From the NCBI RefSeq assembly GCF_012932495.1, contig NZ_JABCNG010000003.1, forward strand, positions 124,001 to 188,000: a DNA stretch of 64,000 bases. Reading direction: 5' to 3'. The position numbers and the translations under genes were made by a program. The DNA is from Novosphingobium sp. SG919 (lineage in GTDB: Bacteria; Pseudomonadota; Alphaproteobacteria; Sphingomonadales; Sphingomonadaceae). Positions 16,071-27,475 of the stretch are shown here, piece by piece. Within the stretch, counting starts at the first letter, position 1. Each line of letters starts with the position of its first letter. Under the pieces are notes generated by a model that ran no database searches, was not told the DNA's origin, and saw only the letters and a list, made by a program, of their open reading frames with translations.

Positions 16071-19000
16071 GTGCCACGCCCCATCTTCTTCGATCCCACC
16101 GGCCAGCGCCGCCGCTGGACTCGTCGCCTTGCCTTTGCCGTGCTGGCCGTGCTGGTGGCGATGTGCGTGATCTTTGCCACCACGGTGGCCACCGTCACCC
16201 CGCGTGAGCCGCTGGCATTTGCCCAGGAACGCCTGGCGCCGCTGCCGCTGAAAACCCAGGTCAGCCGCCTGTCGCACCGCCTGGCCGCGCTGTTCGGCCA
16301 CCGCGCGGTGGTGCCGGCGCGGGTTCAGGCCGCCCCCATCACGATCGGTTTCTACCAGGCGCAAAGCGATGAAAGCGCCGGGGCGCTGCAGCGCCACGTC
16401 GGCCAGATCGACTGGGTGGCCCCCACGCTCATGGGGCTCGATCATGCCGGCCACCTGACGGTGACCGACGATGCGCCGATGCGCCGGATCATCGCCGGAT
16501 CGCTGCGCCGCCCGCTGGTGGTGCCGGTGTTGCAGAACGTGAGCGATGCGGCCGGCTGGGACGGCGCGGGCACGGCTGCCGTGCTGAACAACCCGGCGCG
16601 CCGCCTGGCGCTGGCCAATGCGGTGGACGCCGCGCTCGACAAGTCGGGCGATGCCGGGGTGATGATCGATTTCGAAAGCCTGCCCCAGGGCGCGTTGCCC
16701 GGCCTGCACCAGTTTGCCGCCGACCTGCACGCGCGCCTGGCGCCCAAGCATCGCCTGGTCTCGATCACCATGCCGGTCGATGATGAAAACTGGCACCCGC
16801 GCGCCTTTGCCGACGTGGCCGACAAGATCGTGCTGATGGCTTATGACGAACATTGGCAAGGCGGCCAATCCGGCCCGATCGCCTCCAATCCGTGGTTCAT
16901 CGGCCGTGTTTCCGCCGCGCTCAAGGGCGTTCCCGCCGGCAAGGCGGTGGTCGCGCTCGGCAGCTATGGCTATGACTGGCATGAAGGCCATGCCGATGCG
17001 CTGACCGTGGAAGAAGCCTGGCTGGCCGCGCACGACAGCGGCACCACGCCGGGCTGGGACAAGGCCAGCGGCAATGTCGGCTTTGCCTATGACGACGATG
17101 CCGATACCGCCGATGGCACGCCTGCCGTGCGCCACGACGTGTGGCTGCTCGATGCCGCCACCAGCTGGAACCAGATGCTGATGCTGCGCCAGCTGGGCGT
17201 GGGTTCGGTGGCGCTGTGGCGGCTGGGTTCGGAAGACCCCGGCTTCTGGCCCGTGCTGCAGGCCTGGCACGGCGGGGCCAAGACCCTGCCCGACATTTCG
17301 CGCATTACCCAAAGCAGCAACGTGGACGTGGAAGGCAACGGCGAAATCCTGCGCATCGATGCCACTCCCACGCCCGGCACCCGCTCGCTCGATACCGACC
17401 ATCGCCTCGGCCTCGTCACGGACGAACGCTATGTCACGCTGCCCACGCCCTATGTCGTGCGCCGCACCGGGGATCGGCCCAAGCTGGTCGCGCTGACCTT
17501 CGACGATGGCCCCGATCCGACCTGGACGCCGCAGATCCTCTCGATCCTGGAGAAATACCACGTGCCCGGCACGTTCTTCGTGATCGGCGAAAACGGGGTG
17601 GCCAACCGTGGCCTGCTGCAACGCATGGTGGCCGACGGCGACGAGATCGGCAACCACAGCTATACCCACCCCAACATGGCCAACAGCACCCCGGCCGGGA
17701 TCAAGCTGGAACTCAATGCCACGCAGCGCCTGATAGAGGCCTATACCGGCCGCTCCACCCGCCTGTTCCGCGCGCCCTATTTCGGAGACGCCGAGCCGAC
17801 CACGGCCGACGAACTCGATCCCGCGCTGATCGCCCAGAAGCAGGGTTATACGATCGTCGGCCTCCACGCCGACCCGGGCGACTGGATGCGCCGCCCGGCC
17901 GACCAGGTGGTGCAGCTCACCGTCAGCGCGGTGGATGGCGGCAATGCCGATCGTTCCGCCAATGTGATCCTGCTGCACGATGGCGGCGGCAACCGTTCGC
18001 AGACCGTGGCCGCGCTGCCCCGGATCATCGAACAGTTGCAGGCCCAGGGCTATCGCTTCGTGCCGGTGTCCACGCTGGCAGGCATGAAGCGCGATGACGT
18101 GATGCCCGTGGTCAAGGGCTGGGACCTCGTCGCCGTGCAGCTCGACATCGGCATCTTTGCCGTGCTCGCCGCCGCGCTCGCCACGCTGAACTGGACGTTC
18201 TTCTTCGCCATCGCGCTCGGCACCCTGCGCGCCTTGGGGCTAACCGGCCTGGCGCTGTTCCCGCAGCGCCGCGTCGACCTGCCCTGGCTGAACCGTGCGC
18301 CCGACGTGCCGCCCTACCAGCCGCGCGTGACGGTGATCATTCCCGCCTACAACGAAGAGCGGGTGATCGAGGCTTCAGTCCACCGCATCCTGGCCAGCAC
18401 CTATCCCGCGCTCAGCGTGATCGTGGCCGACGACGGATCGAAGGACGCAACCAGCCAAATCGTGACCGACGCGTTCGGCGGCGATCCGCGCGTGACGCTG
18501 ATGACCCTGGTCAACGGCGGCAAGGCCAGCGCGCTCAACCGGGCGCTCGCCGCCGCCGATGGCGAGATCATCGTGGCGCTCGATGCCGATACCCAGTTCG
18601 AACCCGAAACCATCGGCAAGCTGGTGCGCTGGTTCGAAAAGCCGGAAATCGGCGCCGTGGCGGGCAACGCCAAGGTGGGCAACCGCGTCAACCTCGTCAC
18701 CCGCTGGCAGGCGGTGGAATATGTGACGGCGCAGAACATCGAACGCCGCGCCCTCACCCGCTTCGACGCGATCATGGTCGTGCCCGGCGCGGTGGGAGCC
18801 TGGCGGCGCGAGGCGCTGAACGACGTCGGCGGCTATCCCGAAGACACCCTGGCCGAAGACCAGGACCTGACCATCGCGATCCAGCGCCATGGCTGGAAAG
18901 TGGCCTATGACGAAGACGCCGTGGCCTGGACCGAAGCGCCCGAAACCCTGCGCGCGCTGGGCAAGCAACGCTTCCGTTGGGCATTCGGCACGCTGCAATG

Positions 19001-19436
19001 CCTGTGGAAGCACCGCGCCGTGGTGGCGCAGCAGCGCCCCTCGGGCCTGGCCTTCATCGGCATTCCCCAGGCCTGGCTGTTCCAGATCGCCTTTGCCATC
19101 GCCTCGCCGCTGATCGACCTGGCGCTGGGCATCTCGATCGTGGGCACGATCGTGCGGGTGATCCAGCATGGCTGGGCCCAGACCCAGACCGACGTGCTGC
19201 GCATGGGTGTCTATTGGCTGGGCTTCACGCTGATCGACCTGGCCTGCGGGCTGGTCGCCTTCCGGCTCGACGTGCGCGAAAAGCGGCTGCCCGCGTTCCT
19301 CCTGCTCAGCCAGCGCTTCGTCTATCGCCAGCTGATGTACGGCGTGGTGATCCGCGCGGTCAGCGCCGCGCTCGCGGGCCTGGGCATCGGCTGGGGCAAG
19401 CTGGAACGCACCGGGCGGGTGAATACAGGGTCCTGA
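16071..19436 (+). CDS. Fusion protein: GH18-like domain, polysaccharide deacetylase, family 2 glycosyltransferase
   Basis: An 1121-residue protein with three enzyme modules. A membrane helix (~20-42) is followed by a GH18-like barrel (~88-440) with GVMIDFESL (Asp200, Glu202), then a NodB deacetylase (~475-680) with ALTFDDGPDPTWTP and NHSYTHPNM, membrane helices (~690-740), a GT2 domain (~750-980) with VTVIIPAYNEE, DADTQFEPE, EDQDLT and KQRFRW (QxxRW), and more helices (~1000-1090). Topology suggests hydrolase and deacetylase outside the inner membrane and polymerase inside. The modules parallel PgaB plus PgaC of poly-N-acetylglucosamine synthesis, so a GlcNAc-type polymer is likely but unproven. 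GTG start at 16071. Confidence 0.85.
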   Translation: MPRPIFFDPTGQRRRWTRRLAFAVLAVLVAMCVIFATTVATVTPREPLAFAQERLAPLPLKTQVSRLSHRLAALFGHRAVVPARVQAAPITIGFYQAQSDESAGALQRHVGQIDWVAPTLMGLDHAGHLTVTDDAPMRRIIAGSLRRPLVVPVLQNVSDAAGWDGAGTAAVLNNPARRLALANAVDAALDKSGDAGVMIDFESLPQGALPGLHQFAADLHARLAPKHRLVSITMPVDDENWHPRAFADVADKIVLMAYDEHWQGGQSGPIASNPWFIGRVSAALKGVPAGKAVVALGSYGYDWHEGHADALTVEEAWLAAHDSGTTPGWDKASGNVGFAYDDDADTADGTPAVRHDVWLLDAATSWNQMLMLRQLGVGSVALWRLGSEDPGFWPVLQAWHGGAKTLPDISRITQSSNVDVEGNGEILRIDATPTPGTRSLDTDHRLGLVTDERYVTLPTPYVVRRTGDRPKLVALTFDDGPDPTWTPQILSILEKYHVPGTFFVIGENGVANRGLLQRMVADGDEIGNHSYTHPNMANSTPAGIKLELNATQRLIEAYTGRSTRLFRAPYFGDAEPTTADELDPALIAQKQGYTIVGLHADPGDWMRRPADQVVQLTVSAVDGGNADRSANVILLHDGGGNRSQTVAALPRIIEQLQAQGYRFVPVSTLAGMKRDDVMPVVKGWDLVAVQLDIGIFAVLAAALATLNWTFFFAIALGTLRALGLTGLALFPQRRVDLPWLNRAPDVPPYQPRVTVIIPAYNEERVIEASVHRILASTYPALSVIVADDGSKDATSQIVTDAFGGDPRVTLMTLVNGGKASALNRALAAADGEIIVALDADTQFEPETIGKLVRWFEKPEIGAVAGNAKVGNRVNLVTRWQAVEYVTAQNIERRALTRFDAIMVVPGAVGAWRREALNDVGGYPEDTLAEDQDLTIAIQRHGWKVAYDEDAVAWTEAPETLRALGKQRFRWAFGTLQCLWKHRAVVAQQRPSGLAFIGIPQAWLFQIAFAIASPLIDLALGISIVGTIVRVIQHGWAQTQTDVLRMGVYWLGFTLIDLACGLVAFRLDVREKRLPAFLLLSQRFVYRQLMYGVVIRAVSAALAGLGIGWGKLERTGRVNTGS

Positions 19437-19483: not shown

Positions 19484-20848
19484 CTAAGCCGGCACGTGCA
19501 GCGTCACCGCCAGCCCGCCACCGGGCGCTTCATCCAGTTCCAGGCGCCCCCGGTGCAGCCGCGCCACGGCGTTGACCATCGACAGGCCCAGGCCCCCACC
19601 CGGACGGGTGCGCGCGTTGTCGAGCCGCACGAAGCGCTCGACCACGCGAGGGCGGTCTTCGGGGGCGATGCCGGGGCCATTGTCGGCTACGGCCAGGGTG
19701 GCTTCGCCATCCGCCGCGCGGGTGCGCACAGTGATCGCGTTTCCGCCGTATTTCAGCGCGTTGTCGATGGCGTTGGCCAGCGCGCGCGAGATCAACTCGC
19801 GATCGGCCATGACCCAGGCCGGCGCCAGATCAAGCGCCAAGGTCACGCCCGATTGTTCGGCCAGGGGTTCATAGAGTTCGACCATGTCGGCCGCCACGGC
19901 CGCCAGATCGAGCGCCACGCGGCGGTCTTGCACCGCGCCGCCTTCGAGGCGGCTGATTTCCAGCGCGGTTTCCAACATGGCGCGCAGGCCATCGGCATCG
20001 GCGCGCGCGGCCTGGAGCGCTTCGATCGCGCCCGGCTCGTCCACGCGGGCAAGCGCGGTGTCGATCGCCGCGGAAAGCCGCGTGACCGGCGAGCGCAGAT
20101 CGTGCGCCAATGCGCCCGAAACCGCCCCCAGTTCGGCCACCAGCGTGGCAATGCGCTCGGCCATCTGGTTCATCTGCAGGCGCAAATGGTCGAACCCGTC
20201 GCCGCTTTCCCCTTCTGCCAGGCGCATGCCGAAATTGCCGGCCGCCAGTTCCTCGGCCGCCTTGGCGATTTCGTGGGTGCGGCGGCTGATCGCCAGGCCC
20301 AGGACCACCGCGCTGACCAGCGCCAGCGCCACGGCCACGGCAATGGTCAACCCGATCGCGGCGGCAAAGGCCAGGTTGAAGCGCCGCTCGCTCGCCCCCA
20401 TCAACCCCACGGTCAGCCGCGCGCCGTCGGGCAAAGTGCTGGCCAGCACCAGCGCTTCCTGGTCGTTGGCGCTATCCCCGCGGCGCACCAGCACCGGTTG
20501 CGGGCGCGGGCCCGGCGCGATCGACGGCACGAAATCGATATTGCTCGTCACCGTCGCGCGCGCGCCGCCCGTCAGCGTCACGAAGACGCCGGGATCGGCC
20601 ACGCTGCCGCGCTGGTCGCGAATGAAATCGTCCAGCGAATCGCGCCCGCCGCTGTAGAACGCGGCCAGCAGATCGTCGCGCACGTCGATCACCTGGTCTT
20701 CGCGATCGGCGCGCACCACGTCCAGCATCTGGGTGCGCAGGAAAAAGATCGCCGCCGCGCTCGACAGCAATTGCAGCACGAACACCGCCGCGACCAGGCG
20801 CAGCATGGTGGGCGAAAGCGGGCGCTGGCGCATGGCCCGGGCGAGCAT
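19484..20848 (-). CDS. Sensor histidine kinase
   Basis: A 454-residue membrane sensor: transmembrane helices at ~15-37 and ~160-188 flank a ~120-residue periplasmic domain, followed by HAMP (~190-240), the dimerization/phosphoacceptor helix GALAHDLRSPVTRLSAA (His249) and an ATPase domain with N-box RALANAIDNALKYGG, G1 VADNGPGIAPED and G2 GGGLGLSMVNAVARL. The ATG at 20848 lies 2 bp after the response-regulator stop, so both are co-expressed. The periplasmic domain is not recognised and the signal is unknown. Confidence 0.92.
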   Translation of the reverse strand: MLARAMRQRPLSPTMLRLVAAVFVLQLLSSAAAIFFLRTQMLDVVRADREDQVIDVRDDLLAAFYSGGRDSLDDFIRDQRGSVADPGVFVTLTGGARATVTSNIDFVPSIAPGPRPQPVLVRRGDSANDQEALVLASTLPDGARLTVGLMGASERRFNLAFAAAIGLTIAVAVALALVSAVVLGLAISRRTHEIAKAAEELAAGNFGMRLAEGESGDGFDHLRLQMNQMAERIATLVAELGAVSGALAHDLRSPVTRLSAAIDTALARVDEPGAIEALQAARADADGLRAMLETALEISRLEGGAVQDRRVALDLAAVAADMVELYEPLAEQSGVTLALDLAPAWVMADRELISRALANAIDNALKYGGNAITVRTRAADGEATLAVADNGPGIAPEDRPRVVERFVRLDNARTRPGGGLGLSMVNAVARLHRGRLELDEAPGGGLAVTLHVPA

Positions 20849-20850
20849 GG

Positions 20851-21537
20851 TCAATCGGCAGCCATGCGATAGCCCGCGCCGCGCACGGTGTGGAACAGGG
20901 CCTGCTCCTCGCCATCGTCGATCTTGCGGCGCAGGCGGCTGATATGCACGTCGATCACATTGGTGCCTGGGTCGAAATGATAGTCCCACACCGCTTCGAG
21001 CAGCATGGTGCGGGTGACCACCTCGCCCTGGTGCAGCAACATGTATTCGAGCAGGCGGAACTCGCGCGGTTGGAGCGTGATCTTGCGCGGCCCCCGCTTC
21101 ACCTGGCGGGTCAGCCGGTCCAGCTCCAGATCGGCGCAGCGCAGCACGGTGTCCTGCGCCTTTTGCCGCCCGGTGCCGCGCCGCATCAGCGCCTGGACCC
21201 GCGCCATCAATTCGGCGAACGAGAACGGCTTGCCCAGGTAATCGTCGGCCCCGGCGGTAAGCCCGGCAACGCGATCGTCGGTGCTGCCCAGCGCGGAAAG
21301 CACGATCACCGGGGTTTCCACTTCGGCCGCGCGCAGCGCCTTGAGCACGGCCAGGCCATCCATGCCCGGCAGCATGCGATCGAGCACGACCACGTCGAAC
21401 TGGCTGTCGGTGGCCAGGAACAGCCCGTCCCGGCCATTGTCGGCGCGGTCGACGGTAAAGCCTTCCTCGGCAAAGCCGCGCGCAATGTAGTCCCCGATCT
21501 GGGGATCGTCTTCAACCAGCAGAATGCGTCCGGCCAC
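20851..21537 (-). CDS. OmpR-family response regulator
   Basis: A 228-residue regulator: receiver domain with ILLVEDDPQIGDY, the phospho-acceptor in VVVLDRMLPGMDG (Asp53) and GKPFSFAEL (conserved Lys), followed by an OmpR-type winged helix with LQPREFRLLEYMLLH, TNVIDVHISRLRRKI and VRGAGYRM. I use the GTG at 21537, preceded by GGAAAG, because family proteins start right at RILLVEDD. Partner of the adjacent kinase. Targets are unknown; the divergent VirJ-like gene 75 bp away is a candidate. Confidence 0.93.
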   Translation of the reverse strand: MAGRILLVEDDPQIGDYIARGFAEEGFTVDRADNGRDGLFLATDSQFDVVVLDRMLPGMDGLAVLKALRAAEVETPVIVLSALGSTDDRVAGLTAGADDYLGKPFSFAELMARVQALMRRGTGRQKAQDTVLRCADLELDRLTRQVKRGPRKITLQPREFRLLEYMLLHQGEVVTRTMLLEAVWDYHFDPGTNVIDVHISRLRRKIDDGEEQALFHTVRGAGYRMAAD

Positions 21538-21612
21538 GTGCGACTTTCCATGACAACGAGTTAATCTTGCCCCCACTGCCCGGACAGGGCGCAGGGATCA
21601 TGCCGGTGCATC

Positions 21613-22317
21613 ATGGCTATTGGCTTTCTTGGTCGCAAGCTGTTTGCCCTTGCTGCCGCGCTGCCCGCAGTGGCCGGCGGCACGATGGCGGCTGGCGGCT
21701 ATTTCGATCGCCAGGCCGTGCTCTATCGCGGGCCGCTCGGCCCGCCGCGCCACGATCTGGTGGTGGTCTATTTTTCGGGCGACATGGGCCTGGCGCTGGG
21801 CGCGGGCGGCGGCACGATCGCGGCGTTGCGCGATCGCGGCCTGCCGGTCGTTACGGTCAATTCGCCCGCGCTGTTCGGCGTGGGCCGCGACCGCGCCTTT
21901 GTCGATGCCCTGGTGGCCGATACCATGCGCCAGGCCCTGGCGCGCAGCCACGCGGCCCATATCGCCTTGATCGGCGCGGCATTCGGCGCCGGCGTGCTCG
22001 ATACCGGGCTGGGCGCGGTGCCGGCCGATCTGCGCGCACGGATCGCCTCGGTCGTGCTGGTCGCGCCGGCGCGGACGGTCTATTTCCAGGCCAATCCCGG
22101 CGGCCTGTTCCATCCCGGCGCGCCGGACAGCGATCCGCGCCGCACCGTTCGGCTGCTGCACGGCCTGCCCGTGACCTGCATTTTCGAGAACGACAGCACC
22201 GACAGCCTGTGCCGCACCACCCAGTTGGACGGAGCGCGCCGCGTGCCGCTGGGCAATCACCGCCTGGCCCAGATCAGCGCCGATGCCGCGCTCCACCCAC
22301 CCCAGCCGATGCACTGA
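21613..22317 (+). CDS. AcvB/VirJ-like protein lacking the nucleophilic serine
   Basis: A 234-residue exported or membrane-anchored protein (hydrophobic residues ~8-28) of the VirJ domain type. It keeps the VirJ order VVVYFSGDMGLALGAGGG, GLPVVTVNSPALF, a DSLC motif (Asp197, Cys200) and GNH (His216). The nucleophile elbow, GYSFG in AcvB/VirJ, reads GAAFG here (residues 121-125), with Ala123 in place of serine. AcvB-type enzymes hydrolyse lysyl-phosphatidylglycerol in the periplasm; this copy is probably inactive or acts differently. It is divergent from the two-component operon. Confidence 0.65.
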   Translation: MAIGFLGRKLFALAAALPAVAGGTMAAGGYFDRQAVLYRGPLGPPRHDLVVVYFSGDMGLALGAGGGTIAALRDRGLPVVTVNSPALFGVGRDRAFVDALVADTMRQALARSHAAHIALIGAAFGAGVLDTGLGAVPADLRARIASVVLVAPARTVYFQANPGGLFHPGAPDSDPRRTVRLLHGLPVTCIFENDSTDSLCRTTQLDGARRVPLGNHRLAQISADAALHPPQPMH

Positions 22318-24079: not shown

Positions 24080-24331
24080 GCGGTCCACCCGTCGCGCACG
24101 ATGGTTGCTCCGTCCATTCCCTTGTCCCGATGCCCTGCTGCATCGTACCATCTGAACGCCATATTTACGATCACCAAAATTCTCTGAACATTTCTTCATC
24201 TTCGCTTGCGACGGATAGTGGTTTCGGCGCATTTCAGGCACTGGTAAAGCCGGCCGGCCCCGGATATGAAGCCCCCAATGATGCCACCGGCCTGCCCCTG
24301 CTGGCCCTTTTGCCCAACGAGACGAGAGCCC

Positions 24332-27300
24332 ATGCAGCGCCTCCCCAAGATTCGTTTTCTTTCCTCCGCCGCCCCGCTGGCGATTCCCGTCGCCCTGCTG
24401 GCGGGCGCAACCCCCGCGCTTGCCGATACCACGGTCAGCACCAGCACGCTGACCCCGCTCACCACGTCCTCGGCCGGCAACGTCACCGTTGCCAGCGGCG
24501 GCGCGATCAAGCTGGCCAGTGGCAGCGCCACGGCCGTGACGGTCGATTCCTCCAAGACGGTCAACGTCAACTCGGGCGGGTCGCTCACGCTCAGCGGCTA
24601 CAGCAACAGCGCGGGCATCGCCGTCAGCTCGGGCGTGACCACCACGATCACCAATGCCGGCACGATCTCCCTCACCGAAGACTACACGCCCGACGTGCTG
24701 GGCAACAGCTCGGTCGTCGATGGCTCGGTCTCGCAGCTCACCGGCCGCTATGGCATCCACATCCTGTCGGGCAGCGCCACCACGGCGACGATTTCCAACA
24801 GCGGCACGATCTCGGTCGAAGGCAACAATTCCGGCGGCATCGTCGTCGATTCGGACCTGACCGGCTCGATCACCAACACCGGCACGATCAGCGTCAAGGG
24901 TGACAGCTCGGTGGGCATCGAGACCGGCAACGTGACCGGCAACCTCAACATCGGCGGAACCGTCTCGGTGATCGGCCAGGGCGCGCAGGCCGTGGTCGTG
25001 AACGGCAACGTGACCGGCACGGTGAAGATCGACGGCGCGATGAGCCAGGCGGTCAGCTACACCGCCGACGATTCCACCACGCAGTATCTCTCGCCCTCCG
25101 CGCTCAGCAGCGGCAAGGCTGCGGTACAGGTTTCGGGCAATGTCACCGGCGGCGTGATCGTCACCGTGGCATCGAGCAGCGGCAGCACCACCGAAACCAC
25201 CGGCTCGATCCAGTCCTATGGCACCAGCCCGGCGCTGCTGATCGGCGGCACCAGCAACACCACGATCGGTTCGGTCACGGCCACCACCGGCACCTATTCG
25301 GTGGCGATCGACGGCAGCGTGGGCGCTTCGGCCTATTATAGCGGGCTCAGCTCCTATGGCGTGGTGCTGGGCGGCCAGGGCGGCACCGTCACCCTTTCGA
25401 ACGGCATCGGCGTCTATGGCACGGTTTCGGCCACCACGGTCAACAGCGATGCCACCGCGATCCTGATCAATTCGGGCGTCACGGCCACTTCGCTGTATAA
25501 CGAAGGCACGATCAAGGCGACGGCGAGCGAGGTTTCCACCGGCAACCTCTATGGCATCCGCGATCTCTCGGGCACGCTGACCACGGTCAACAACACCGGC
25601 TTCATCACCGTGAGCGGCGCCACCACCGGCAAGAACGCGGCGATCGACCTTTCGGCCAACACCAGCGGCGTGACGATCACGCAGTACCTCAACAGCACCG
25701 ACGCGGCGAGCCAGAAGACCGACAAGGCCGCCTCGGGCTATGACGTGGACACCGCCACCGTCTACACCGCGATCACCGGCGACATCTATACCGGCAGCGG
25801 CAACGACACGGTGGACATCGAATCTGGCAAGGTGACCGGCGACGCCTACCTGGGCGCGGGCAACGACACCGTGAAGCTGGCCGACGACGCCAAGTGGATC
25901 GGCGATATCGATTTCGGCACCGGCACGGCCACCATGTCGATGGCCGGCAATTCGCGCTTCACCGGCGAACTGATCCTCAATGACCAGGTCGGCACGCTGA
26001 CCCTGGCCGATTCGGCGATCTGGAAGGGCACGATCAGCGGCGGTTCGCAGCTGGGCGTGACGGTCAACGGCGGCTCGTTCGGCGCCAACAGCACCGACAC
26101 CACCACGATCAACAGCCTCACGGTCAATTCCGGCGGCACGCTGGGCGTCTATGTCGATGGCACCACCGGCACCGCGTCGAAGCTGGTGGCCAACACGGTG
26201 ACCTTCAACAGCGGCTCCAAGATCGGCGTGACGATCTCCTCGTTCGCCAACGCGGCCGGGACTTATGACATCGTGTCGGCCGGCACGCTGACCGGCGGCA
26301 GCAATGTCACCACCAGCTCGCTTTCGCTGCCGATCCTGTTCAAGGGTTCGATCACCCAGTCGGGCAACGACCTGGAACTGACCCTGGCGCGCAAGACCGC
26401 CACCGAGCTGGGCCTCACGTCGCCCCAGGCCGCTGCCTATGACGCGATCATCGGCAATGCGGCCAGCTACAGCACGCTGGAATCCAGCCTGCTGCAGATG
26501 ACCACGACCAGCGCGATGCAGAGCCAGTTCAACGAACTGCTGCCCGACTATGCCGGCGGCGCGTTCGACTTCGTCACCCGCGGTTCGCGCCAGGCGGCGC
26601 TGCACGTGGCCGACGATTCGTCGCTGTTCACCATCAGCAACACCGGCATGTGGCTGGAGCCGCTCTACTTCCGTGCCAGCAAGCACGACGGGGATTCGAT
26701 CGGCTACAGCCTGAGCGGCGGTGGTGTCTCGCTCGGCCTCGAACGCGCCACGTCGCTGGGCAACATCGGCGCCTACTTCGATTGGACCAGCGGCACGGTG
26801 AACAACCACAACCAGCAGTCGCTGGGCGTGAACAACATCGAAATCAACGCCTTCTGGCGCAAGGCATTCGGCAAGCTCTACACCTTCGCCCGCGTCGGCT
26901 ATGGCCGCTCGTCCTACAAGCTTGACCGCACCTTCACCGGCACGGTCGATTCTTCGGACATCACCTACACCGCGCACGGCGGCTGGAAGGGCCACTCGAT
27001 CTCGGCCACCGGCGGCTTCACCTACGACTTCAATCTGAGCGACACGTTCAAGATCAAGCCCAAGGCGAGCATCGAGTACTTCCGCCTCAAGGAAAACGGC
27101 TACCAGGAAACCGGTACCGACGCGATCATCCTGCTGGTGCGCGGCCGCACCAGCACCGCCGTCAACGCCACCACCACCCTGGGCTTTGCCTGGAGCCGTG
27201 GCCCCAGCAGCTACGAAGGGCGCCCCTTCACCGTGGAAGCCGACTTCGGCCGCCGCAGCCACCTTTCGGGCGACCTGGGCCAGACCACGGCGATCTTCGG

Positions 27301-27475
27301 CTCGGGCCAGTCCTTCACGCTCACCCCGGAAAACCAGAGCTCGGCCTGGATCGGCTCGGTCGGCATTCTCCAGGGCGGCCTGGACTACACCTGGAAGATC
27401 TCGGCCGGGGCGGAAAAGCCGACCAACGGCGGCATTGCTCCCAACGTACGCGCTTCGCTCAGCATCGCGCTCTAA
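24332..27475 (+). CDS. Autotransporter (type V secreted) surface protein
   Basis: A 1047-residue protein: signal peptide ending TPALA, a ~740-residue beta-helix passenger rich in Gly/Ser/Thr with repeats such as ITNAGTISL, ISNSGTISV and ITNTGTISV, and a C-terminal autotransporter barrel (~770-1047) beginning MWLEPLYFRASKHDG and ending ASLSIAL. Two short GxGNDTV units (residues ~488 and ~508) look like RTX calcium-binding turns. I see no protease triad; adhesion or biofilm is plausible but unshown. It is divergent from the ECF sigma gene across ~250 bp, and a strong terminator follows at 27596. Confidence 0.88.
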   Translation: MQRLPKIRFLSSAAPLAIPVALLAGATPALADTTVSTSTLTPLTTSSAGNVTVASGGAIKLASGSATAVTVDSSKTVNVNSGGSLTLSGYSNSAGIAVSSGVTTTITNAGTISLTEDYTPDVLGNSSVVDGSVSQLTGRYGIHILSGSATTATISNSGTISVEGNNSGGIVVDSDLTGSITNTGTISVKGDSSVGIETGNVTGNLNIGGTVSVIGQGAQAVVVNGNVTGTVKIDGAMSQAVSYTADDSTTQYLSPSALSSGKAAVQVSGNVTGGVIVTVASSSGSTTETTGSIQSYGTSPALLIGGTSNTTIGSVTATTGTYSVAIDGSVGASAYYSGLSSYGVVLGGQGGTVTLSNGIGVYGTVSATTVNSDATAILINSGVTATSLYNEGTIKATASEVSTGNLYGIRDLSGTLTTVNNTGFITVSGATTGKNAAIDLSANTSGVTITQYLNSTDAASQKTDKAASGYDVDTATVYTAITGDIYTGSGNDTVDIESGKVTGDAYLGAGNDTVKLADDAKWIGDIDFGTGTATMSMAGNSRFTGELILNDQVGTLTLADSAIWKGTISGGSQLGVTVNGGSFGANSTDTTTINSLTVNSGGTLGVYVDGTTGTASKLVANTVTFNSGSKIGVTISSFANAAGTYDIVSAGTLTGGSNVTTSSLSLPILFKGSITQSGNDLELTLARKTATELGLTSPQAAAYDAIIGNAASYSTLESSLLQMTTTSAMQSQFNELLPDYAGGAFDFVTRGSRQAALHVADDSSLFTISNTGMWLEPLYFRASKHDGDSIGYSLSGGGVSLGLERATSLGNIGAYFDWTSGTVNNHNQQSLGVNNIEINAFWRKAFGKLYTFARVGYGRSSYKLDRTFTGTVDSSDITYTAHGGWKGHSISATGGFTYDFNLSDTFKIKPKASIEYFRLKENGYQETGTDAIILLVRGRTSTAVNATTTLGFAWSRGPSSYEGRPFTVEADFGRRSHLSGDLGQTTAIFGSGQSFTLTPENQSSAWIGSVGILQGGLDYTWKISAGAEKPTNGGIAPNVRASLSIAL

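Follow-up and report, generated by a model that had tools for sequence, protein, structure and literature searches.

The locus

The window considered here, that is, the whole stretch of DNA that was analysed, comprises 64,000 nucleotides of contig NZ_JABCNG010000003.1 from Novosphingobium sp. SG919. It carries a gene for a fusion protein in which a GH18 glycoside hydrolase, a CE4 deacetylase of the NodB type and a GT2 glycosyltransferase follow one another on a single chain. Systems that produce poly-N-acetylglucosamine (PNAG) combine synthesis, deacetylation and cutting of N-acetylglucosamine (GlcNAc) polymers, and the fusion protein probably carries out both the production and the processing of a glucosamine polymer with little outside help.

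The open reading frame begins with GTG, contains no internal stop and shares its start point with its homologues. A sequencing or frame artefact is ruled out by the stop-free frame of equal full length found in many genomes, and the running together of two or three genes is ruled out because the fusion is conserved. The original prediction, made from the letters alone, had placed a GH18-like domain, a NodB deacetylase and a GT2 polymerase on one chain. Indeed, three Pfam families are found in this one reading frame over their cut-offs: Glyco_hydro_18 by a modest margin (residues 169-386, 31.9 bits against 29.6), Polysacc_deac_1 (469-570, 116.5 against 23.1) and Glyco_tranf_2_3 (751-973, 129.9 against 27). 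A full-length AlphaFold2 model built with 52 family sequences has a mean pLDDT of 88.2 and a pTM of 0.70, with low confidence at residues 53-86, between the first helix and GH18; modelled alone, the GH18 domain reaches a pLDDT of 94.0. The features are collected in Table 1.

Table 1. Features of the fusion gene and of its product, in window coordinates
Feature	Residues	Position	Strand	Basis or remark
Whole gene, GH18-CE4-GT2 fusion		16071..19436	+	Single open reading frame, 1121 amino acids, stop codon included
N-terminal signature (PIFFDPTGQR)	4-13	16080..16109	+	Predicted cytoplasmic
First membrane helix	12-40	16104..16190	+	Hydropathy, AlphaFold2 model
GH18 TIM-barrel	88-404	16332..17282	+	Pfam, model, fold matches; predicted periplasmic
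GH18 D200-F-E202 (E202, expected acid/base Glu)	200-202	16668..16676	+	Alignment
Small all-beta linker unit, conserved G424 and E425	416-466	17316..17468	+	AlphaFold2 model
CE4/NodB deacetylase	469-670	17475..18080	+	Pfam; D478, D479, H529, H533, R567, P569, D604, W605, H636
Single long helix	683-729	18117..18257	+	Predicted membrane crossing, from CE4 (outside) to GT2 (inside)
GT2 synthase domain	751-973	18321..18989	+	D788, D838-A-D840, E929-D930, Q966-R-F-R969-W970
C-terminal helices	991-1033, 1041-1066, 1075-1102	19041..19376	+	Within the stretch matching membrane synthases

Averaged over the family, hydropathy peaks at residues 23-39, 696-724, 999-1023 and 1050-1059. With one crossing between CE4 and GT2, the predicted topology puts GH18 and CE4 outside the inner membrane and GT2 inside, in agreement with the earlier proposal that hydrolase and deacetylase lie outside and the polymerase inside. 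The first helix is preceded by a short signature of the pattern [PQ][IV]F.D....R. Residue counts here and below use the 130 distinct rows of an alignment of 150, the other 20 being repeats; F6 and R13 of the signature are identical in all 122 rows that have the residue, the remaining 8 showing gaps. A two-domain protein of Kocuria, described below, reads FYDPSGKR at this place.

Catalytic centres and folds

GH18 enzymes are recognized by a catalytic D-x-E together with the Y-D of the sixth strand, CE4 enzymes by a D-H-H metal triad, a catalytic Asp and the motifs R-x-P-Y, D-x-x-D-W and L-x-H-D, and GT2 membrane synthases by D, D-x-D, E-D and Q-x-x-R-W. All three sets are present in the window protein: D200, E202, Y258 and D259 in GH18, the CE4 residues of Table 1 together with L634, in the usual order, and every GT2 motif residue, followed by a membrane region of the hyaluronan synthase (HAS)/BcsA type. 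Loss of key deacetylase or GT2 residues, the weak point named in the original prediction, was looked for by alignment, and none is lost in this protein. Across the alignment, D479, H529, H533, R567, P569, D604, W605 and H636 of CE4 and D838, D840, E929, D930, Q966, R969 and W970 of GT2 are invariant, and D478 and D788 are altered (to Y and A) in a single row, L123, a metagenome fragment ending at a contig end, which may be a dead or misassembled copy.

The hydrolase behaves differently. D200, Y258, D259 and W383 are kept in 126, 119, 121 and 127 of the 130 rows, respectively, and E202 in 116 of the 128 proteins that have this column (in the other two the contig ends inside the gene). In the remaining 12, E202 is replaced by Gln in five Acidobacteriota (L095, L097, L102, L109 and L122), by Asp in four Mucilaginibacter (L113, L125, L127 and L129) and by Thr, Arg or Ser in three alphaproteobacteria, Sulfitobacter and two others. 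On the tree these losses amount to three changes, each of them required by supported branches (FastTree, which warned of long branches). Thus, the hydrolase has lost its centre more than once, whereas the centres for synthesis and deacetylation are kept throughout the set except in L123.

This pattern could be interpreted as meaning that GH18 is mainly a chain guide or a housekeeping enzyme, which holds the chain for the deacetylase or clears the periplasm, cutting being no part of normal production. In addition to the replaced Glu, GH18 is the least conserved domain, with a mean pairwise identity of 0.36 compared to 0.53 and 0.60 for the other two, and the fold is kept where the residue is gone, L113 still scoring 62.9 bits as GH18. 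Nevertheless, most proteins retain not only the Glu but also the remaining active-site residues of GH18, more than would be expected if selection acted on binding only, and we consider this reading unlikely.

Comparison with known structures gave, for GH18, 5jh8, a chitinase of Chromobacterium violaceum (Z 35.8 over 304 residues, 2.1 Å), and SleL 4s3j (Z 34.4); for CE4, peptidoglycan and other CE4 deacetylases; and for the GT2 part (residues 705-1120), 8sne, the hyaluronan synthase of a Chlorella virus (Z 32.4 over 374 residues, 2.8 Å; second in Z to the mannosyltransferase 6yv7 discussed below), and, likewise, cellulose synthase. Fold similarity is compatible with different substrates. SleL is a spore cortex-lytic enzyme and the CE4 domain resembles PgdA and PdaB, so a role in the cell wall might be envisaged, for example the making of a wall-linked glycan coupled to trimming of peptidoglycan. 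Against this, a HAS/BcsA-like GT2 is not of the peptidoglycan polymerase type, and no wall gene family recurs beside the fusion gene across phyla. Even though a link between the Streptomyces matAB genes (see below) and peptidoglycan was raised in the 2015 mat paper (PMC4391728), we regard such a role, in place of an exopolysaccharide, as very improbable.

Distribution across bacteria

A search for the architecture showed it to be widespread, and so not a peculiarity of sphingomonads. Counts given here include the centre genome of each search. Within the genus, a full-length match is present in 36 of 59 genomes, and four more have pieces only, at contig ends or broken; one copy, on contig C191 of genome G050, is split into three pieces that overlap, one of them containing two TAG stops, and is broken or misassembled. 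The genome of strain SG919 has a second copy (L134, contig C2:482405-485722) that is 50% identical overall, and N. pokkalii, which has the closest named protein among the matches listed (92% identical), also has two (L054 and L084). In the order, 15 of 196 genomes have a match at E 1e-90 or better.

Beyond the order, matches were counted at E<=1e-70, a threshold that by itself is no proof of GH18, two-domain Streptomyces proteins reaching 3e-108; a match was taken to include GH18 if it started at residue 150 or earlier. Matches were found in 9 of 398 genomes of Pseudomonadota (8 of the 9 including GH18 sequence), 30 of 149 of Acidobacteriota (26 including it and 4 beginning at residue 310 or later), 9 of 198 of Bacteroidota (all 9 including it) and 2 of 146 of Cyanobacteriota, one of them split over two contigs. 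A scan of named genomes, confined to the best 80 loci and therefore giving a lower bound on phyla, added Gemmatimonadota and one metagenome-assembled genome of Bacillota. Of 72,556 plasmid records, 14 have a match that covers 80% or more of the protein, and a Deinococcus plasmid encodes the fusion, with all three Pfam families over their cut-offs. The same holds for all eight homologues chosen for scanning, from a cyanobacterium, Gemmatimonadota, Acidobacteriota, Bacteroidota, the Bacillota assembly, bacterium HR15, another genome of the same phylum and the SG919 paralogue. Such recurrence of the architecture goes beyond chance, and the three-part protein is thus present in at least six phyla. 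A sphingomonad-like copy, 52% identical to the window protein, in a record named Arthrobacter sp. TPD3018 (L062) probably comes from a mislabelled sphingomonad. Over 128 proteins, the pairwise distances of the GH18, CE4 and GT2 domains correlate with one another at 0.89-0.90, in keeping with inheritance of the fusion as a unit.

Neighbouring genes

In 101 neighbourhoods, of which a few come from the same organisms, there is no gene family that keeps a fixed position from one phylum to another. For these loci an operon partner common to the phyla is ruled out, recurring neighbours being bound to single clades. The commonest are linked histidine kinases and response regulators (17 of 101) and a PMT_2-like protein (15 of 101). 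A kinase/regulator pair stands directly downstream on the opposite strand at ten loci, nine from sphingomonads and one from a Caulobacteraceae record. The window is among them: its histidine kinase and OmpR-type response regulator (19484-21576, minus strand) converge with the fusion gene and could regulate it. In 64 of 90 loci there is no same-strand neighbour within 60 bases. In Sulfitobacter (L160, 1997-7532), the synthase gene, whose GH18 region is missed by Pfam, overlaps a DUF3131 gene by 4 bases, and the DUF3131 protein is a possible partner there.

Further along the window, a gene for a VirJ-domain protein (21613-22317, plus strand) diverges from the response regulator gene. A 1069-amino-acid open reading frame (24266-27475, plus strand) contains numerous repeats rich in Ser, Thr and Gly and what seems to be a C-terminal beta-barrel, and looks autotransporter-like by eye.

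The observation that the gene has no partners nearby can be extended to the genome, where no Pga-type gene scores over its cut-off either. Neither the PgaB hydrolase (PF14883) nor PgaD (PF13994) was found in any of 19 carrier genomes, strain SG919 included, the E. coli control being positive for both. The PgaA porin model (TIGR03939) was over its cut-off in none of the 19, all of which gave weak partial matches (at most 40.2 bits against 366.65). In nine further genomes, seven of them outside Pseudomonadota, PF14883 reached its cut-off in one, barely.

Relatives of the synthase and the deacetylase

The best NCBIfam model for the GT2 domain is PgaC_IcaA (TIGR03937), with 187.6 bits; NodC (TIGR04242) gives 117.6 bits against a cut-off of 550, and NodB (TIGR04243), for the deacetylase, 118.8 against 240, both below. 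A PgaC equivalog is ruled out by a TIGR03937 score under the cut-off, and a complete Pga system by the absence, in the 19 carrier genomes, of PF14883, PF13994 and any PgaA match over its cut-off. Of the reference proteins compared, the GT2 half is closest to two-domain CE4-GT2 proteins of Streptomyces (45% identity over 370 amino acids) and Kocuria (40% over 379), ahead of E. coli PgaC (35% over 240), NodC (33% over about 240) and an IcaA (25% over 339). Likewise, CE4 is 43% identical to the Streptomyces protein and 37.5% to both the Kocuria protein and NodB (over 208 amino acids for NodB), compared to an alignment over 36 amino acids only with E. coli PgaB. A quick GT2 tree unites the fused family with the CE4-GT2 proteins of actinobacteria (SH-aLRT 90). 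Because long branches lead to BcsA, Kocuria, Streptomyces, L105 and IcaA, only the broad grouping was used.

The original interpretation holds in part: three intact centres are present, expected to make, deacetylate and cut a polymer, but the deacetylase is NodB/PdaB/PgdA-like and not PgaB-like, and the hydrolase is a GH18 and not of the PgaB type.

A proposed model for the fusion protein

We favour, as a fairly likely explanation resting on sequence and structural models, that the protein is an autonomous machine of the inner membrane whose product is a beta-linked GlcNAc polymer, of either linkage, that has lost some of its N-acetyl groups. The protein has a MatB-like core of CE4, membrane helix and GT2, and GH18 lies between the N-terminal anchor and CE4. 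The cytosolic GT2 would polymerise UDP-GlcNAc into a beta-GlcNAc chain, which the membrane helices of the synthase would pass outward, as in hyaluronan and cellulose synthases. CE4, which the long helix would keep at the exit, would remove some of the acetyl groups, and GH18, which can cut only where the acetamido group is intact, would cut the chain internally, be it for release, to limit its length or to clear the periplasm. GH18 enzymes use the acetamido group of their own substrate, which argues for a GlcNAc-type polymer here; by the same chemistry, deacetylation may shield the chain from GH18 and set its length. Domain content, folds, catalytic residues, predicted topology, a single shared history and the absence of a cross-phylum partner were computed. 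The sugar, its linkage, the order of events and a biological use, which may be an adhesive matrix, we infer.

Several observations weigh against this model. The PgaC_IcaA score is far from the cut-off of 422.3 bits (E. coli PgaC scores 648), the fused family falls outside both the PgaC/IcaA and the NodC groups in the quick tree, and an archaeal mannosyltransferase, 6yv7, has the highest Z of the structures matched to the GT2 part (33.7 over 339 residues, 3.1 Å), so that UDP-GlcNAc is a presumed donor. Loci were partly collected by peptide patterns containing the LTFDDGPD or IPAYNE motif, and the conservation of those residues is therefore in part a product of the way the loci were chosen. Since E202 is gone from 12 of 128 proteins, hydrolysis must be dispensable in some members. 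No outer-membrane exporter was identified for the protein. Finally, a same-strand gene lies within 60 bases downstream in 22 of 90 loci and upstream in 4, which leaves room for partners in single clades.

The linkage can be argued both ways: 1,6 is favoured by the scores of the GT2 family models and by the example of MatB, 1,4 by GH18, the NodB-like CE4 and a weak PF03142 match. If the product were beta-1,4-linked, the protein would be a bacterial chitin/chitosan synthase, or a synthase of long chito-oligosaccharides, with its own deacetylase and chitinase, and would amount to a pair like NodB and NodC joined to a GH18. GH18 enzymes are known to cut beta-1,4 links, and the domain has a chitinase fold; CE4 aligns with NodB far beyond the short stretch shared with PgaB, and the nodB-nodC order of rhizobia is that of CE4 and GT2. 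With the chitin synthase family PF03142, the window protein (29 bits against 27) and the eight homologues scanned (28 to 46.2 bits) all pass the cut-off, in a scan that covered members of the fused family and not PgaC. On the other side, GT2 scores higher with PgaC_IcaA than with NodC, and MatB, whose CE4 is also nearest to peptidoglycan and chitin deacetylases, is reported to make a 1,6-linked polymer (PMC5972031). We give this sub-case a serious but clearly less than even chance; were it true, the gene would be a compact bacterial source of a chitosan-like polymer. The larger combination, in which one gene, in at least six phyla and without a conserved partner of the Pga, Ica or Nod type, would serve to make, export across the inner membrane, deacetylate and cut a beta-1,4-linked, chitosan-like polymer, and in which three lineages would have turned a dead GH18 into a guide, seems to us rather unlikely as a whole.

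Comparison with known systems

The nearest studied relative is MatB of Streptomyces (SCO2962 / SLI_3306), which was described as an N-terminal NodB-like deacetylase joined to a C-terminal PgaC-like GT2 (PMC4391728) and was reported to make PNAG (PMC5972031). Its CE4, membrane helix and GT2 follow one another as they do in the fusion, and it is represented in our comparisons by the plasmid-encoded CE4-GT2 homologues of Streptomyces and Kocuria, whose GT2 groups with the fused family. Since the CE4-GT2 half resembles MatB, a fused synthase and deacetylase was already known, and what is new in the chain is the presence of GH18. As described in these sources, MatB differs in having no GH18 in the chain and in working with matA, an icaC-like gene adjoining. 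The arrangement on a Kocuria rosea plasmid (L156, 2668-5973) is a split form of the fusion architecture: there, the CE4-GT2 gene faces a separate GH18-like gene annotated as a chitinase, which scores 22.9 bits as GH18, under the Pfam cut-off, and has no real BLAST similarity to the GH18 of the window.

PgaABCD and IcaADBC resemble the fusion in that the PgaC_IcaA model scores its GT2 best and in that the deacetylase and, for PgaB, the hydrolase lie outside the inner membrane, as predicted here. They differ in being encoded by separate genes and in including PgaA and PgaD. The earlier remark that the domain order departs from that of E. coli Pga is correct: PgaB consists of CE4 plus GHL13 and PgaC is the product of a separate gene, whereas the fusion runs GH18-CE4-GT2. 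In addition, the CE4 of PgaB is described as circularly permuted, while the CE4 motifs of the fusion stand in the usual order. NodB and NodC of rhizobia share with the fusion the gene order and a NodB-like CE4, but they are separate proteins, make an oligomer and have no GH18.

Fusions of Gram-negative deacetylases to a glycosyltransferase, in operons without detectable pgaA or pgaD, were reported in an in silico survey of PNAG operons (PMC7112194). In these, the glycosyltransferase is N-terminal to a PgaB/IcaB-like deacetylase, and the main text of the survey does not contain the word 'gh18'. The same paper treats two points as open: the coordination of the two activities of PgaB, and the reason for which a bacterium that makes the polymer should retain an enzyme that cuts it. 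With three activities locked 1:1:1 on one chain, and with natural versions that lack the Glu, the PgaB question becomes testable with one gene. The fusion would also point to an exopolysaccharide of soil and plant bacteria (sphingomonads, Acidobacteriota and Bacteroidota) missed by surveys of pga operons. A literature search, with little reach into subscription journals and none into bioRxiv, found no recognisable study of the three-domain protein, and neither 'gh18' nor 'glycosyltransferase' occurs in the main text of the CE4 reviews searched; the architecture may well be listed in domain-architecture databases, which lay outside the search. Relative to MatB and to the surveyed operons, the new elements are a GH18 in the chain, the breadth of phyla, the lack of any partner common to the loci, a signature at the N-terminus and a hydrolase Glu that has been lost repeatedly.

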